A stretch of 39,417 nucleotides of DNA from Armatimonadota bacterium (GTDB lineage Bacteria > Armatimonadota > Fimbriimonadia > Fimbriimonadales > Fimbriimonadaceae): contig JAFDWQ010000011.1 of the NCBI GenBank assembly GCA_018268395.1, positions 1-39,417 of the forward strand, written 5' to 3'. Shown here in pieces: positions 26,214 to 32,002 of the stretch. The translations under genes were made by a program, and so were the position numbers. A model generated the notes under the pieces. The model had not been told where the DNA came from. It did not search any database and saw only the letters and a program-made list of their open reading frames with translations. Numbering within the stretch: position 1 is the stretch's first letter; every line of letters begins with the position of its first letter.

Positions 26214-26576
26214 ATGAAGCGAACGAACAAGAGAAGGAAAGGCTTTACCCTTGTCGAGATCATGATCGTGGTCTTGATCATCGGCATCCTTCTGGCCATT
26301 GCCGTGCCGAACTTTATCACGGCCCGCCAGAACAGCCGTGCGCAGACGATCGTCGCCACGCTGAAGCAGGTCGAAGCGGCCAAGGACCAGTGTGCGATGG
26401 ACAAAGGTCTGACCACCGGTGACGACTGCACCGACGCCGACATGGGCAGCTACCTGAAGAAGTACCCGCCGACCTTCCCGGTCGGAGGCGCCTACGTCAA
26501 GAACTCGATCGGCACGAACCCGACGTTCAAGGGTAAGGACGCCGACCAGTGGTCTTCCGATAAGAGCGGTCTCTAA
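26214..26576 (+). CDS. Type IV pilin / major pseudopilin-like protein
   Basis: This 120-residue prepilin has a basic leader MKRTNKRRKG followed by FTLVEIMIVVLIIGILLAIAVPNFITARQNSRAQTIVATLKQVEAAKDQ, a textbook class III signal cut after Gly10 with Glu5 of the mature protein present. Two Cys (about residues 61 and 70) can form the disulfide of the globular head. The short C-terminal part (YLKKYPPTFPVGGAYVKNSIGTNPTF) resembles GspG/competence-type pilins. The Shine-Dalgarno GGAGGAAAG (26201-) is strong, stronger than for most genes here, which fits high expression. It leads the pilin cluster. Confidence 0.92.
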   Translation: MKRTNKRRKGFTLVEIMIVVLIIGILLAIAVPNFITARQNSRAQTIVATLKQVEAAKDQCAMDKGLTTGDDCTDADMGSYLKKYPPTFPVGGAYVKNSIGTNPTFKGKDADQWSSDKSGL

Positions 26577-26659
26577 GCCGCGGACCGGTACAGAGCGCGG
26601 TGGGCGGCAGTCGCTGTCCGCCGCGTTCTTGCCTCTGAACTTTGAATTCGAGAGTACCC

Positions 26660-27121
26660 ATGACACGAAAACCGTCACGACTGAGGAGGGGCGCGATGCT
26701 CGTGGAGTCGCTCTTCGCGATCGGCATTGCGGTGACCGCAGCGACCATCGTCGCAGCGTCCATGCCTGTCGCGAACGCTGGAAGGGCCAGGGCCGACATG
26801 CAGAACCGGGCTACAGGCTTGGCGCAGAAAGAGCTCGAGGGCCTGAAGTCGGTCGACCCTAGCCTCAATCCGTCGACGTTGGTCCAAGCAGGGCTGCTCG
26901 ACAGCGACGTGCCCATCGGCACGAACACGTATTCGTTCACCAACGCGGACAACGCCAGCCTCGACAACCCCGCGAAAGTTTTGCCGAGCGGCAAAGGATC
27001 GGTGAAGATCGAACAGATCGACCTTGAACTTCGACGGGTCACCGTCGAGGTCACGTGGAAGGAGTCGGGCAAGTCCCGCGCGACCAAGGTTGGGACGCTC
27101 GTCGCCAACCTCGGAGGTTGA
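26660..27121 (+). CDS. Minor pilin-like protein (PilV/GspI position)
   Basis: This 153-residue protein has leader MTRKPSRLRRG, then AMLVESLFAIGIAVTAATIVAASMPVANAG: a class III signal with Glu5 of the mature form. The rest, about 110 residues with ARADMQNRATGLAQKELEGLKSVD (helix) and a beta-rich C-terminus (LELRRVTVEVTWKESGKSRATKVGTLVANLGG), resembles PilV/GspI minor pilins. It lies between the pilin and a PilW/GspJ-like gene, 1 bp from the latter. The upstream ATG at 26660 is preferred to GTG 26642 since it begins the leader. Confidence 0.82.
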   Translation: MTRKPSRLRRGAMLVESLFAIGIAVTAATIVAASMPVANAGRARADMQNRATGLAQKELEGLKSVDPSLNPSTLVQAGLLDSDVPIGTNTYSFTNADNASLDNPAKVLPSGKGSVKIEQIDLELRRVTVEVTWKESGKSRATKVGTLVANLGG

Positions 27122-27122
27122 C

Positions 27123-27710
27123 ATGGCCCGCAAGATCACGGGACGACGGACCGGCGCGACGCTCGTCGAGGCGATGATCTCGGCCGTCGTCACGGTCTTG
27201 GTCGTCGGGACCGCGACGGGCGTCTGGCTCGCAGGGGCCAAGTCCTGGTACCGCGGTGCCGGCAAGATCGATTCCGAGACTCAGAGCCGCAAGGCGGTCA
27301 AGCTCGTCACGAACGAACTGGCCGAAGCCATGATGGTCACGGTCGACGCCGACGGATACGGCATCACTTTCCAAAAGCCTGCCAAGGACAACACAGGCTT
27401 TTACAAGACCGACATCTTGGGCCAGCCTGTGTCCGACGGCTTCGACCGCCGGATCTGGCTCGACGGCACGAAACTCAAGTACCTGAGCCCTCAAGGCACC
27501 CGCGTCCTTTCGACGGTCGTGATCAAGACCGATCCCCTGTCGAGCGGCGGAAGCCAGACGTACAAGGTCTTTACGCCCGGAAACGGCAGCATCTGCCGTC
27601 AGGTCACCGTCATGGTCGCCACGCGAACCGTCGGAGCGGGCGCTGAAAAGGTGACCGGCCGGAACCGCGAAATCGTCTTTCTTCGCAACATCTACGACAC
27701 GACACGCTAG
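27123..27710 (+). CDS. Minor pilin-like protein (PilW/GspJ position)
   Basis: This 195-residue protein has the leader MARKITGRRTG and then ATLVEAMISAVVTVLVVGTATGVWLAGAKSWYRGAGKIDSETQSRKAVKLVTNELAEAM, a class III signal with Glu5 followed by a long amphipathic helix typical of PilW/GspJ. The C-terminal half is beta-rich and ends with VTVMVATRTVGAGAEKVTGRNREIVFLRNIYDTTR. It starts at 27123, one base after the previous stop. In known systems these minor pilins form the tip complex that starts pilus assembly. Confidence 0.82.
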   Translation: MARKITGRRTGATLVEAMISAVVTVLVVGTATGVWLAGAKSWYRGAGKIDSETQSRKAVKLVTNELAEAMMVTVDADGYGITFQKPAKDNTGFYKTDILGQPVSDGFDRRIWLDGTKLKYLSPQGTRVLSTVVIKTDPLSSGGSQTYKVFTPGNGSICRQVTVMVATRTVGAGAEKVTGRNREIVFLRNIYDTTR

Positions 27711-27723
27711 GAGAAGTCCCAAC

Positions 27724-29634
27724 ATGAATCTGAAATCCAGGAAGCGTGGCAAAAGACAGAAGGGTTCGGCCCTGCTGACGACGTTCGGTGTCCTCACCCT
27801 CGTCGCCATTGCGGGTTCGACCTATCTTGATTGGTCCACGCAGACCGTCCGCGAGGCCGGCCACAACCTCCGCGACGTCCAGACCACCCACCTCTGCGAG
27901 GCGGGGCTCCAGTCTGTCCAGCGGGCGCTTTGGCGGCCCTTCCGACAAAGCCAGAAGTTCACCGAACTCAAATCGACTTGCCAAGGGGCGACCAACGACA
28001 ACCCGAAGTCCGTCCTGACGGGCAAGATCGACGGTGTCGGGTGCTTCATCACGGGCGTCGTCTCGTACACCCAGGTCAACAGCTACCTGGCGGTCTTGAA
28101 GATCCGCTCGATCGGGTTCATCGACCGCAACGGCAACCAGATCCTCGATGCAGGCGAGTCCTTCAAAGAGGTCATGAGCGTCACCCGGTACGAGCTGGCC
28201 CGGAGCCAAGTCTTCGACTACACCTATTTCATCAACAACTATGGTTGGTGGGACGGCTTCGGTCAGAACGACGCGATCGTGAACGGCGATATGCGGGCGA
28301 ACGGCAACTTCGATTTCTCCAACGGGTCGCCGACCGTCAACGGCACCGTCATCGCGGCGGCCAACGACAAGCTGGATCCCAAGGTTCCCGGCTTCATCAA
28401 TACGCCGCCGGTCAAGTGGACGGACGCGAACTACCTCGTTCAGTGGGGGACAGGTTCGGGTACCGCGCCTCGGTGGCGCCCGCCCTACCAGTCGTCCGTC
28501 CACGGTAACGTCGGGACGTCGAACTTCAACACGTGGCGCGACATGGTCTTCAAGTCCAACGCCCAGTGGGTCAACGGCCATACGGTCGGTGACGAATACG
28601 TACCTCCGAGCTCTTTCGGCGCCGTTCAGGCCGACTCCCGCGGCGTCTACGCCTGGGACCGGGTCAATTCCGGGACGGCGGGGACGAAGTCCCTGCTCGA
28701 TACGAAACCGACCAAGGAAGTCGTCATGCCGGACCTCAGTGACCTGAGCCGGTACCAGCAGCTGAGCAAGGACTTCGGCGACAACCCTTCCGAATACCAA
28801 AAGCAGACGTTCGCGGACGGATCGGCCAATCCGGACTATGGCAGCAAGCCTTACGTCAAAGTCTGGAACTCCACGACGAACTCGTACCAGACGTTGTCCG
28901 ACTCGAACGGTTGCGTGTCCGGAAGCGCCGTCCTGGTCGGTACGACCGACAAACCGATCCTGTTGTACGGCCCTGTGACGGTCGACCAAGACGTGGTCGT
29001 CAAAGGGACGATCAAAGGACAAGGCACCCTGTACGCGGGGCGGAACGTCCACTTGGTGGGCAGCCTGAAGTACAAGAACCCTCCGTCTTGGCAAGGGTCC
29101 GACCCGATCGCTCAGGACATCGCCAACGAGAAGAAGGACATGGTCGGTCTCGCCGCCCGCGGTTCGGTGATCATGGGCGACACGACCACGTTCGGCAACC
29201 CGTGGCCCCTCTACTACATGATGCCGCCGTTCACCCACGGCCGTTACGACGACAACGGGACGTACATCCCGCCGTTCAACGCTATGGACACGGACTCGAC
29301 CGGCCGTAAAAAGTACCAGAGCGTGATCCCGGACGCCACGATGCACAGCATCGCCGAAGGCGTCAACCAGATCGACGCGATCCTCTACACGAACTTCGTC
29401 GGCGGAGGCAACGTCGGCACGGGCGGTAGCGGTGTGACGTTCAACGGCACGCTGGTCAGCAAGGACGAGTCGATCGTGACCTGGAGCCTGCCGATCCGGA
29501 TGAACTATGACAACCGGATCCGTGAGCGCGGCCCGGACACGCCTCCGCTCGTCGACCTCCAACTGCCTCGACAGCCCACGATGATGCGGAGCACGTGGCA
29601 GGACACCGGCTTCTATGACCATGGAAAATCGTAA
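27724..29634 (+). CDS. Large PilX/GspK-like pilus tip protein
   Basis: This 636-residue protein has the leader MNLKSRKRGKRQKG and then SALLTTFGVLTLVAIAGSTYLDWSTQTVREAGHNLRDVQTTHLCEAGLQSVQRALW: a class III signal in which mature residue 5 is Thr, not Glu, as in PilX/GspK-type proteins. The remaining 550 or so residues are far larger than GspK (about 330), have Gly/Ser/Thr/Asn-rich beta-type composition and runs such as GTIKGQGTLYAGRNVHLVGSLKYKNP, which resemble a parallel beta-helix or fibre ('polymer-forming cytoskeletal'-type) domain. It likely caps the pilus and carries a surface-binding domain, but this is inference. It starts 13 bp after the previous gene. Confidence 0.8.
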   Translation: MNLKSRKRGKRQKGSALLTTFGVLTLVAIAGSTYLDWSTQTVREAGHNLRDVQTTHLCEAGLQSVQRALWRPFRQSQKFTELKSTCQGATNDNPKSVLTGKIDGVGCFITGVVSYTQVNSYLAVLKIRSIGFIDRNGNQILDAGESFKEVMSVTRYELARSQVFDYTYFINNYGWWDGFGQNDAIVNGDMRANGNFDFSNGSPTVNGTVIAAANDKLDPKVPGFINTPPVKWTDANYLVQWGTGSGTAPRWRPPYQSSVHGNVGTSNFNTWRDMVFKSNAQWVNGHTVGDEYVPPSSFGAVQADSRGVYAWDRVNSGTAGTKSLLDTKPTKEVVMPDLSDLSRYQQLSKDFGDNPSEYQKQTFADGSANPDYGSKPYVKVWNSTTNSYQTLSDSNGCVSGSAVLVGTTDKPILLYGPVTVDQDVVVKGTIKGQGTLYAGRNVHLVGSLKYKNPPSWQGSDPIAQDIANEKKDMVGLAARGSVIMGDTTTFGNPWPLYYMMPPFTHGRYDDNGTYIPPFNAMDTDSTGRKKYQSVIPDATMHSIAEGVNQIDAILYTNFVGGGNVGTGGSGVTFNGTLVSKDESIVTWSLPIRMNYDNRIRERGPDTPPLVDLQLPRQPTMMRSTWQDTGFYDHGKS

Positions 29635-29650
29635 AGAGAGACCCCGCGCT

Positions 29651-30082
29651 ATGAACGTCCGCTTCAAGTCCGCCGTGCTTCTGGGTCTGGTGCTCGCGGC
29701 CGTGTCCGCGAGCGCGTTCCAGGAGGACAAACCGGGCGGTGCCCGGTTCTACAACGAACAGTCGCAGGAGCGCGTCCAGCAACAACAAGCGTTCTCCGGC
29801 AAGATGGGCGTGGTCGGCTCGGTCCCCGAGTCCACCGCCGACAAGGCGCCCTCGGGTTCGCTGAACTCGAGCGACGCCGGCGATTCGTTCTCCAACGCAG
29901 ACTCCGGAAAGGCGACCAAGGCGATGGTCGCGGCGACCAAACGGGTGGACGAGGCCAAAAGCCAGGGGTCGCCGTTCGGGCTCGTCGCCATCATCTTCGG
30001 CGTCCTGATCGGGCTCGCACTCGTGGCCAAGACCTACTTGGACAAGAGCGTTCCAGTCCCGCGAAGCCTCTCCAGCAGCTGA
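29651..30082 (+). CDS. Exported protein with C-terminal membrane anchor
   Basis: This 143-residue protein is read from ATG 29651, which begins the signal peptide MNVRFKSAVLLGLVLAAVSASA; ATGs at 29615 and 29621 would overlap the previous gene and put a charged stretch before the signal. The middle part is Gln/Ser/Lys-rich, with a coiled-coil look (EQSQERVQQQQAFSGK), and a membrane helix near the C-terminus (GLVAIIFGVLIGLALVA) leaves a short positively charged tail. It is the last gene of the pilin cluster, and I know no family. It could anchor or modify the pilus complex. A perfect hairpin follows at 30092. Confidence 0.75.
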   Translation: MNVRFKSAVLLGLVLAAVSASAFQEDKPGGARFYNEQSQERVQQQQAFSGKMGVVGSVPESTADKAPSGSLNSSDAGDSFSNADSGKATKAMVAATKRVDEAKSQGSPFGLVAIIFGVLIGLALVAKTYLDKSVPVPRSLSSS

Positions 30083-30121: not shown

Positions 30122-30814
30122 ATGCGACACGTGTGGGGCGCCTTGCGCCTCTTGGTCAAGACGCCGGCGCTCTGGCCCTTGGCCGCTCTTCCCCTTGTTT
30201 CGGCCGTCGTGGCCTATCTGGCGCTCCTCGCCCTAGGGTTCTGGGCGGTCGTGCCGCGCCTGACGGCGGCGGGTTCGAAGTTCGGGCTTCCCGACACTGT
30301 CGGATGGTTGACGGGATCGACCCTGTTCGCCCTCGTGTGGGTGCTCGTCTCGGGCCCCCTCTTCATGATTCTGTTCAGTTTGATCGCCGTCCCGGTCTGG
30401 GACAGGCTGACGGCCAAGGTCGAATCACTGTGCGGCGTCCCGGACCGGGGCACGGCCTTCAGCGTGCGGTTCTTGGCCCGGGATTTGCCGCCTCGGGCCT
30501 GCTTCGCGCTCGGAGCCGCGTGCGCGGCGCTGGTGTTCGGATGGCTCGGGTTCGGACTGGTCGGCGCGGCGCTGGGAGGCTGGGTGATGCTCTACGACCT
30601 GACCGCCCCTTCCTGTGCCCGTCGGGGAACGGCTTTCCTCCAGCAACCCGGGTTCGTCCACCGCCGGCAAGGATGGCTGGGGCTCTGGACGGTGTCCTCG
30701 CTCGTGACGCTCGTTCCCGGCCTGAACGTGCTGTGCCTACCGACGCTGGTCACGGCAGGGACTCTGCTCGTCGTGGAAGGCGAACGGCGAGGGGCCGTCG
30801 CAACCGGGCCGTAA
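30122..30814 (+). CDS. EI24/CysZ-like membrane protein
   Basis: This 230-residue protein has five to six membrane segments: ALWPLAALPLVSAVVAYLALLALGFW, LFALVWVLVSGPLFMILFSLIAVPVW, ACFALGAACAALVFGWLGFGLVGAALGGWVM and WLGLWTVSSLVTLVPGLNVLCLPTLVTAGTLLVVEGE. The opening MRHVWGALRLLVKTPALWPLAALP and the 'FSLIAVPVWDRLTAKVESL' block fit the EI24 domain family, whose bacterial member CysZ is a sulfate channel. Whether this protein moves sulfate cannot be told. Its TAA is part of the -10 box of the next gene. Confidence 0.75.
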   Translation: MRHVWGALRLLVKTPALWPLAALPLVSAVVAYLALLALGFWAVVPRLTAAGSKFGLPDTVGWLTGSTLFALVWVLVSGPLFMILFSLIAVPVWDRLTAKVESLCGVPDRGTAFSVRFLARDLPPRACFALGAACAALVFGWLGFGLVGAALGGWVMLYDLTAPSCARRGTAFLQQPGFVHRRQGWLGLWTVSSLVTLVPGLNVLCLPTLVTAGTLLVVEGERRGAVATGP

Positions 30815-30817
30815 AAT
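30812..30817 (+). promoter_or_regulatory. -10 box of trpB (leaderless)
   Basis: TAAAAT, which begins with the stop codon of the upstream gene, ends 6 nt before the trpB ATG, so +1 falls at the start codon. No -35 match at 16-18 nt. Confidence 0.5.
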
Positions 30818-30823
30818 GGGGAC

Positions 30824-32002
30824 ATGACCCCCGACAGGCTTCAGGACAGGTTCGGAGACTTTGGCGGCCGTTATGTCCCTGAGACCCTCGTACCGGCCCT
30901 GGACGAACTTGAATCGTGCTTCCTACAGGCCTGGGCCGCCCCGCTCTTCCGTGAAGAGTTCGAGAGCCTTTTGACGCACTACGTCGGGCGGCCGACCCCG
31001 TTGACGGAAGCCAAGCGGCTGTCACAGGAACTCGGGCTTCAGGTGAGCGTCAAACGCGAGGACCTGTGCCACACGGGTGCCCACAAGATCAATAACGCGC
31101 TCGGACAGTGTCTCCTGGCCAAGCGGATGGGGAAGAAGAGGATCATCGCCGAAACGGGGGCCGGTCAGCACGGAGTGGCGACCGCGACCGTATGTGCGAT
31201 GCTCGGGATCCCGTGCGAGGTCTATATGGGAGAGGAAGACTGTGCGCGGCAGGAACTGAACGTCTTCCGGATGAGGCTGCTCGGAGCGACGGTCGTACCC
31301 GTGAAGAGCGGGACGAGGACGCTCAAAGACGCGCTGAACGAAGCCATGCGCGATTGGGTGACGAACGTCCGGTCGACCCATTACGTCATTGGGACAGCTG
31401 CGGGACCGCACCCCTATCCGGCGATGGTCCGCGAGTTCCAGGCCGTCATCGGTCGCGAAGCGAGGCGCCAGTACACGAACCGTCATGGCCGATTGCCCGA
31501 CGTGGCGGTGGCGTGCGTCGGAGGAGGTTCGAACGCGATCGGCTTTTTCCACGCGTTCGTCGACGATCCGGTGCGACTGATCGGTGTCGAAGCGGGCGGG
31601 GAAGGGGTCGGAAGCGGCCGGCACGCGGCCCCGCTGACGGCGGGCTCTCCCGGCGTCCTCCATGGGTCGTACAGCTACATGATGCAGGACGAGGACGGGC
31701 AGGTGGTCGAGACGCATTCGGTCTCGGCCGGCCTCGACTATCCTGGCGTCGGTGCCGAACATTCCATGCTCAAAGACAGCGGCCGTGCCGAATACCTGGC
31801 GGCGACGGACGACGATGCCTTGTCCGCGTTCCAGTCCGTGGCCCGGCTGGAAGGGCTGATCCCAGCGTTCGAGACGGCCCATGCGTTCGCCGCACTTTGG
31901 ATGAAAGGGCTTTGGGAACCTGGCGCACGGGTGCTCGTGAACATGAGCGGTCGGGGCGACAAGGACATGGAACGGGCCGCCAAGCTTTTCGGCCTTGGAT
32001 AG
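30824..32002 (+). CDS. trpB: Tryptophan synthase beta chain
   Basis: This 392-residue PLP enzyme joins indole and serine to make tryptophan, normally in complex with TrpA. It shows [21 protein letters not shown] at the N-terminus, the PLP lysine in [14 protein letters not shown] (Lys88), the [20 protein letters not shown] loop, [12 protein letters not shown] for the phosphate and the closing [30 protein letters not shown] region. This is the TrpB1 type, which partners TrpA. trpA is not adjacent. The gene follows a -10 box directly, and is followed by a small hairpin and asd. Confidence 0.96.

Follow-up and report, generated by a model that had tools for sequence, protein, structure and literature searches.

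A probable type IVa pilus locus in an Armatimonadota order, with a large putative capping pilin and a co-occurring membrane protein

Five consecutive genes of an Armatimonadota bacterium raise two questions: (i) which machine they belong to and (ii) whether that machine is new. They lie in the stretch of 39,417 nucleotides that was analyzed here (the window), which is contig C11 of a 3.72 Mb genome. A sequence-only reading of this DNA had described a five-gene pilin cassette that encodes a large tip-like protein and regarded it as a candidate for an undescribed system. All five ORFs were found in the order that it gave (26214-30082), and the cassette with its large tip-like protein was borne out.

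26214..26576, forward strand: G1, 120 aa, major pilin-like (PilA/GspG/ComGC type); prepilin motif G/FTLVE, Glu5 present.
26577..26659, forward strand: strong stem-loop (RNA fold) with a stem of ~17 bp, in the gap that separates G1 from the minor-pilin genes.
26660..27121, forward strand: G2, 153 aa, PilV/GspI-like minor pilin; prepilin motif G/AMLVE, Glu5 present.
27123..27710, forward strand: G3, 195 aa, PilW/GspJ-like minor pilin; prepilin motif G/ATLVE, Glu5 present.
27724..29634, forward strand: G4, 636 aa, large putative capping pilin of the PilX/GspK type; prepilin motif G/SALLT, without Glu5.
29651..30082, forward strand: G5, 143 aa, exported protein with a signal peptide, a polar linker, one C-terminal membrane helix, and a short basic tail.

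The gaps between successive genes are 83, 1, 13, and 16 bases, and an upstream ATG at 29615 would extend G5 to 155 aa. A promoter scan found no promoter. Past the cassette, positions 30122-32002 encode a CysZ/EI24-like membrane protein and then trpB, which adjoins the cassette in several relatives too.

The products of G1 to G4 each have a short basic leader ending in G followed by a hydrophobic helix, the hallmark of the type IV pilin superfamily. The leaders of G1 to G3 are ordinary class III leaders, and G1 matches N_methyl (E=7.5e-10); in several relatives this gene occurs in tandem, in two to three copies. The RNA of the gap between G1 and G2 is predicted to fold with -43.1 kcal/mol (z=-4.7), and the corresponding gap gives z <= -2.4 in 10 of the 12 relatives in which both genes were located automatically. 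This stem-loop was not called by a simple terminator scan. It is a possible attenuator or processing hairpin that might tune how much major-pilin mRNA is present relative to minor-pilin mRNA.

Gene order was compared across the loci of 40 relatives. Wherever BLAST detects the genes, they stand in the order G1-G2-G3-G4, so this order is not due to chance. In family f2, which is more diverged, BLAST often misses G2 and G3, and prepilin ORFs occupy the matching positions. Full-length G4 (>400 bits) was found in 73 of the 113 genomes of the order, one copy being cut off at a contig edge, and in 13 genomes of three other families of the phylum (f19, f26, and f31; 291 genomes searched), whose loci likewise hold the cassette with a G5-like ORF. 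No relatives were found among the viral contigs searched. High scores to the G2 profile occur only in genomes with G4, with weaker, second PilV types elsewhere; thus, the cassette appears to have been gained and lost as one unit. Second, more diverged copies of the cassette within one genome occur at L073, L074, and L076 and in genomes G004, G032, G132, G145, G167, and G168, in some cases with a second PilV-PilW pair directly after them.

The identity of G4 bears on both questions. The protein had been said to be about twice the usual size, and it is indeed long: the NCBIfam GspK model has 307 positions and the GspK of the type II secretion system (T2SS) in the same genome has 408 aa. Similarity to the GspK model is confined to the N-terminus (residues 12-84, E=1.1e-4) at 21.8 bits, under the cut-off of 130, and PilX_N is matched by only 4 of 37 G4 members (best E=3.3e-4), so that G4 scores below the curated cut-offs of both families. 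Its homology to the PilX type is instead established via 480-aa PilX-type proteins in three genomes of sister lineages (G205-G207; loci L123-L125). Profile comparison aligns G4 with these over most of its length (probability 98.5%, E=1.6e-15). The sister-lineage loci share the PilA-PilV-PilW-PilX order, whereas their PilX-type proteins lack the NNYGW block and are not accompanied by G5. One of them matches DUF7305 above the cut-off, and Bactofilin and PilX_N below it. In all three genomes the 480-aa gene lies directly upstream of PilM- and PilN-like genes.

A further clue to the role of G4 comes from the fifth residue of the mature pilins. In other type IV pili, Glu5 is required by every pilin except the capping one (PMC12040237). 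Here Glu5 is present in 37/37 G1, 30/30 G2, and 28/30 G3 sequences, and in none of 37 G4 sequences, the pattern that marks a capping pilin. G14 of this protein is kept in 36 of the 37 G4 relatives. We infer from the precedents that G4 is a capping pilin of the PilX/GspK/ComGG type and would occupy the pilus tip. In Myxococcus xanthus, the priming complex from which the pilus grows is made up of PilY1 together with PilX, PilW, and further minor pilins (PMC7541494), and a bulky solenoid pilin, ComZ, has been argued to fit only at the tip (PMC6561018). Like the PilX/ComGG capping pilins of PilX-PilV-PilW tips, G4 lacks Glu5, is encoded among PilV- and PilW-like genes, and has N-terminal PilX_N/GspK similarity; it differs in being about twice the usual size and in having G5 alongside, and no FimT/FimU-like gene was seen in the cassette. 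PilY1/PilC tip adhesins are also large tip components presented by minor pilins, but PilY1 is not a pilin. A search of the relatives for PilY1 was silent, as was its control search.

Which machine would assemble these proteins? A type IV pilus is a retractable surface fiber, and the genome encodes PilB, PilT, PilC, PilM-N-O, and a secretin, as expected of a type IVa system. The genes pilB-pilT-pilC are on contig C1 (202.8-207.2 kb) and a PilM...PilQ operon is on C3 (10.8-16.6 kb), in which PilN, PilO, and PilP were assigned by position and sequence start only. No PilC/GspF family member occurs on the contig of the cassette, only on C1 and C3, in agreement with the proposal that its machinery is encoded elsewhere. 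PilT was found in all 113 genomes of the order. Cassette and assembly genes are unlinked in this order, so we infer their pairing; the homologous cassette does adjoin PilM- and PilN-like genes in G205-G207, and in G205 the adjoining PilM scores 134 bits to the universal (C3) PilM of the genome under study versus 59 bits to its second PilM. The universal type IVa machine is the best candidate machine for the cassette.

Two other machines in the genome were weighed. One is a second PilM-secretin-PilB-PilC cluster on C1 (about 475.9-483.3 kb), which is a nearly complete assembly machine and might be served by the cassette. Its distribution does not track G4: close relatives of its PilM turn up sporadically, in a minority of genomes; many G4-bearing genomes are without them, and seven have such a PilM but no G4 (G016, G134, G156, G050, G138, G021, and G140). 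On these grounds we rejected this cluster as the partner, and consider such a pairing highly improbable. The other is the T2SS on C3 (508.7-519.6 kb), with the cassette forming the tip of a pseudopilus for protein export. T2SS GspK is the best curated model for G4 and shares with it the leader and N-terminal helix, GspK sits at the pseudopilus tip, and pseudopilin sets and minor-pilin sets come in the same order. However, pseudopilins, a GspK, and a secretin are already encoded with this T2SS, which is on a different contig from the cassette; the cassette is not co-encoded with GspE, GspF, and GspD, and the homologous cassettes of sister lineages adjoin pilM-pilN. Service to protein export thus seems quite improbable. 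The T2SS GspK (L114 12498-13724) also differs from G4 in having a ComEA-like helix-hairpin-helix stretch.

Because G4 lacks Glu5, its homologues are linked to pilM-pilN, pilBTC and pilMNOQ are present, and the T2SS is separate and has its own GspK, we conclude that the cassette quite likely encodes the pilins and tip of the ordinary type IVa pilus in this order of Armatimonadota. The proposal of an undescribed system does not hold: the rest of the type IV pilus machinery is in the same genome, a homologous, shorter cassette adjoins pilM-pilN in sister lineages, and a GspK-like tip pilin bearing a solenoid is already known, ComZ of Thermus. Forty of the 113 genomes lack full-length G4 and all of these have PilT; therefore, the pilus can do without G4.

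The genome has other pilin genes in abundance. There are 46 prepilin N-methylation motifs genome-wide, i.e., dozens of pilin-like proteins. Near pilC-pilT-pilB (C1, 188-196 kb) are prepilin-type proteins of 1099 and 710 aa that match no Pfam family (very large prepilin ORFs at L132 7999-11298 and 11288-13192, and at L110 320-3336), a candidate for another tip or surface cassette. A second PilV-PilX cassette on C10 (67.7-70.2 kb; L131 7702-10200) encodes a 506-aa DUF4900-like protein and no G5; in several genomes without G4, the only PilV matches are similar in strength to the PilV of this C10 cassette. Several other prepilin cassettes in the genome, one of them beside pilBTC, could instead provide the main tip.

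The part of G4 beyond the pilin head was described from sequence as repetitive and beta-type, with a beta-helix expected. Features of the G4 protein relevant to this are:

Residues around 181-215, 395-450, 470-490, and 550-600: strand-rich, probable beta-solenoid segments.
Residues 134-145: EF-hand-like loop, with D134 invariant and D142 and E145 each in 34/37 members.

Weak matches to two beta-helix families were detected, MinC_C in 21 of 37 G4 members (at about residues 386-466 in those scanned) and Bactofilin in 5. Short strands were predicted for residues 372-441, a block with pLDDT of 72-90; a full-length AlphaFold model of G4, built with two sequences, had a mean pLDDT of 30 and was discarded. 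Foldseek placed the MinC C-domain first for a 121-residue fragment (E=0.35, not significant), and a second look at the fragment (VIA) gave Z of at most 2.4. Profile searches of solved structures with G4 returned no credible match; that ComZ is missing there does not imply an unrelated fold. The description was thus upheld in part: one piece of the protein is predicted to be strand-rich and no strict repeat emerged, and the fragment prediction and weak family matches suggest a beta-helix, short of establishing it. A beta-solenoid like that of Thermus ComZ is therefore the probable, if weakly supported, fold of the large domain. The conserved loop at residues 134-145 makes calcium binding plausible. 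In family f2 (L061-L070), and only there, an insertion near the C-terminal third carries a further, canonical EF-hand-like loop, e.g., DINQNGIIEDDE, on top of the conserved one.

ComZ of the Thermus thermophilus pilA1-4/comZ locus is a close parallel in architecture: a large GspK-like pilin in a short pilin cassette, a proposed tip protein, and an extra domain that exceeds the pilin head and is rich in beta strands. The two proteins have no detectable sequence relation; the solenoid fold and DNA binding are features of ComZ, the former probable and the latter possible in G4. As described, the Thermus locus comprises four pilins and comZ, with no equivalent of G5 mentioned in the passages used here.

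The parallel raises the possibility of a competence pilus, with the same tip, DNA as its ligand, and natural transformation as its main role. ComZ, whose structure is solved, is a GspK-like pilin with an inserted beta-solenoid; the protein binds DNA, transformation requires it, and it is encoded among pilin genes (PMC6561018). This genome has ComEC, as do 39 of 41 genomes searched, which makes DNA uptake possible. Mean identity to the window is 60% for G1, 53% for G4, 47% for G2, and 40% for G3 (28 loci in which all four could be compared), and better conservation of G4 than of G2 and G3 fits a constant ligand; for a fast-diversifying, host-specific adhesin, G4 would be expected to be less conserved than its neighbors, the opposite of what is seen. 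Against this reading, none of the solved chains, ComZ among them, matches G4 in sequence, genomes without G4 have ComEC just as often, the calculated pI of mature G4 is about 6.1, and counterparts of the lysines with which ComZ binds DNA could not be mapped in G4. A main role in transformation is possible but rather doubtful. Fimbriimonas ginsengisoli is non-motile and attachment was suggested as the role of its pili (PMC4072686), and we weigh surface attachment somewhat above DNA uptake as the function of the G4 tip.

G5 had been described as an exported, C-terminally anchored protein of no known family, and this stands. The signal peptide ends in SASA/F, the polar linker is about 80 residues long, and searches of Pfam and NCBIfam gave no credible match (best NCBIfam E=0.041, 13.8 bits, cut-off 34). 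With a mean column identity of 24%, it evolves fast. Failure of the fifth gene to accompany the cassette in relatives had been named beforehand as one outcome that would speak against the proposal, and G5 does accompany it. In an order-wide profile search (present at E < 1e-5), 73 of 113 genomes have G5 and 72 of these also have G4; both are present in 72, neither in 39, and the two exceptions are G175, with G4 only in a genome 69% complete, and G053, with G5 at a contig edge and no G4. The Fisher value for this co-occurrence ignores shared ancestry and is not taken as a probability; the repeated joint absences and presences of G4 and G5 in genus g19 are the stronger point. Around the locus, an automatic finder detected an ORF with signal peptide and transmembrane helix after 42 of 51 G4-like genes versus 11 of 582 other genes. 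On a looser reading such an ORF follows in 49 of 56 loci; of the others, five encode the shorter PilX-like proteins and two encode G4 (the G005 locus and one from G004). In G005, G5 and G4 are on different contigs; therefore, the pairing is independent of adjacency.

G5 might instead have nothing to do with G4 and be a small membrane protein that happens to sit in its operon, as low sequence conservation and the lack of a known family or a structure would allow. This is improbable given the near-perfect co-occurrence with G4, including in G005, and the absence of G5 beside shorter PilX-like genes. Co-occurrence and membrane topology indicate that G5 probably serves the tip pilin G4 as its dedicated partner in the membrane. 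It is the most novel part of the cassette and probably a new component, which would make the cassette a known kind of machine with one new part. More tentatively, and with less than even confidence, G5 could represent a new class of type IV pilus component that serves only giant capping pilins of the G4 type, holding or licensing them before assembly, with G4 and G5 together replacing the PilX-PilY1 tip module in this phylum.

Under the type IVa reading, assembly would begin with G4, the capping pilin, which would nucleate a priming complex in the inner membrane, and G3 (PilW) and G2 (PilV) would join beneath it. G1 would then polymerize behind the minor pilins, driven by PilB/PilC and guided by PilMNO(P)Q encoded elsewhere, and PilT would retract the fiber. 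The extra domain of G4, a probable beta-solenoid set into the pilin head like that of ComZ, may thus be displayed at the tip and bind a surface or polymer. G5 would stay in the inner membrane, facing the periplasm, as a partner of G4 that may, for example, hold or stabilize it before assembly.

Giant modular tip pilins are believed to determine the binding range of type IV pili. To our knowledge, few have been described and their biogenesis is not understood. The locus described here is likely the pilin and tip locus of a type IV pilus in a phylum that has received little study. A family of giant tip pilins, found across much of that phylum with a nearly obligate membrane partner, would make the holding and loading of a bulky capping pilin testable via one gene pair, and it is this nearly obligate pair, G4 and G5, that deserves experimental work.
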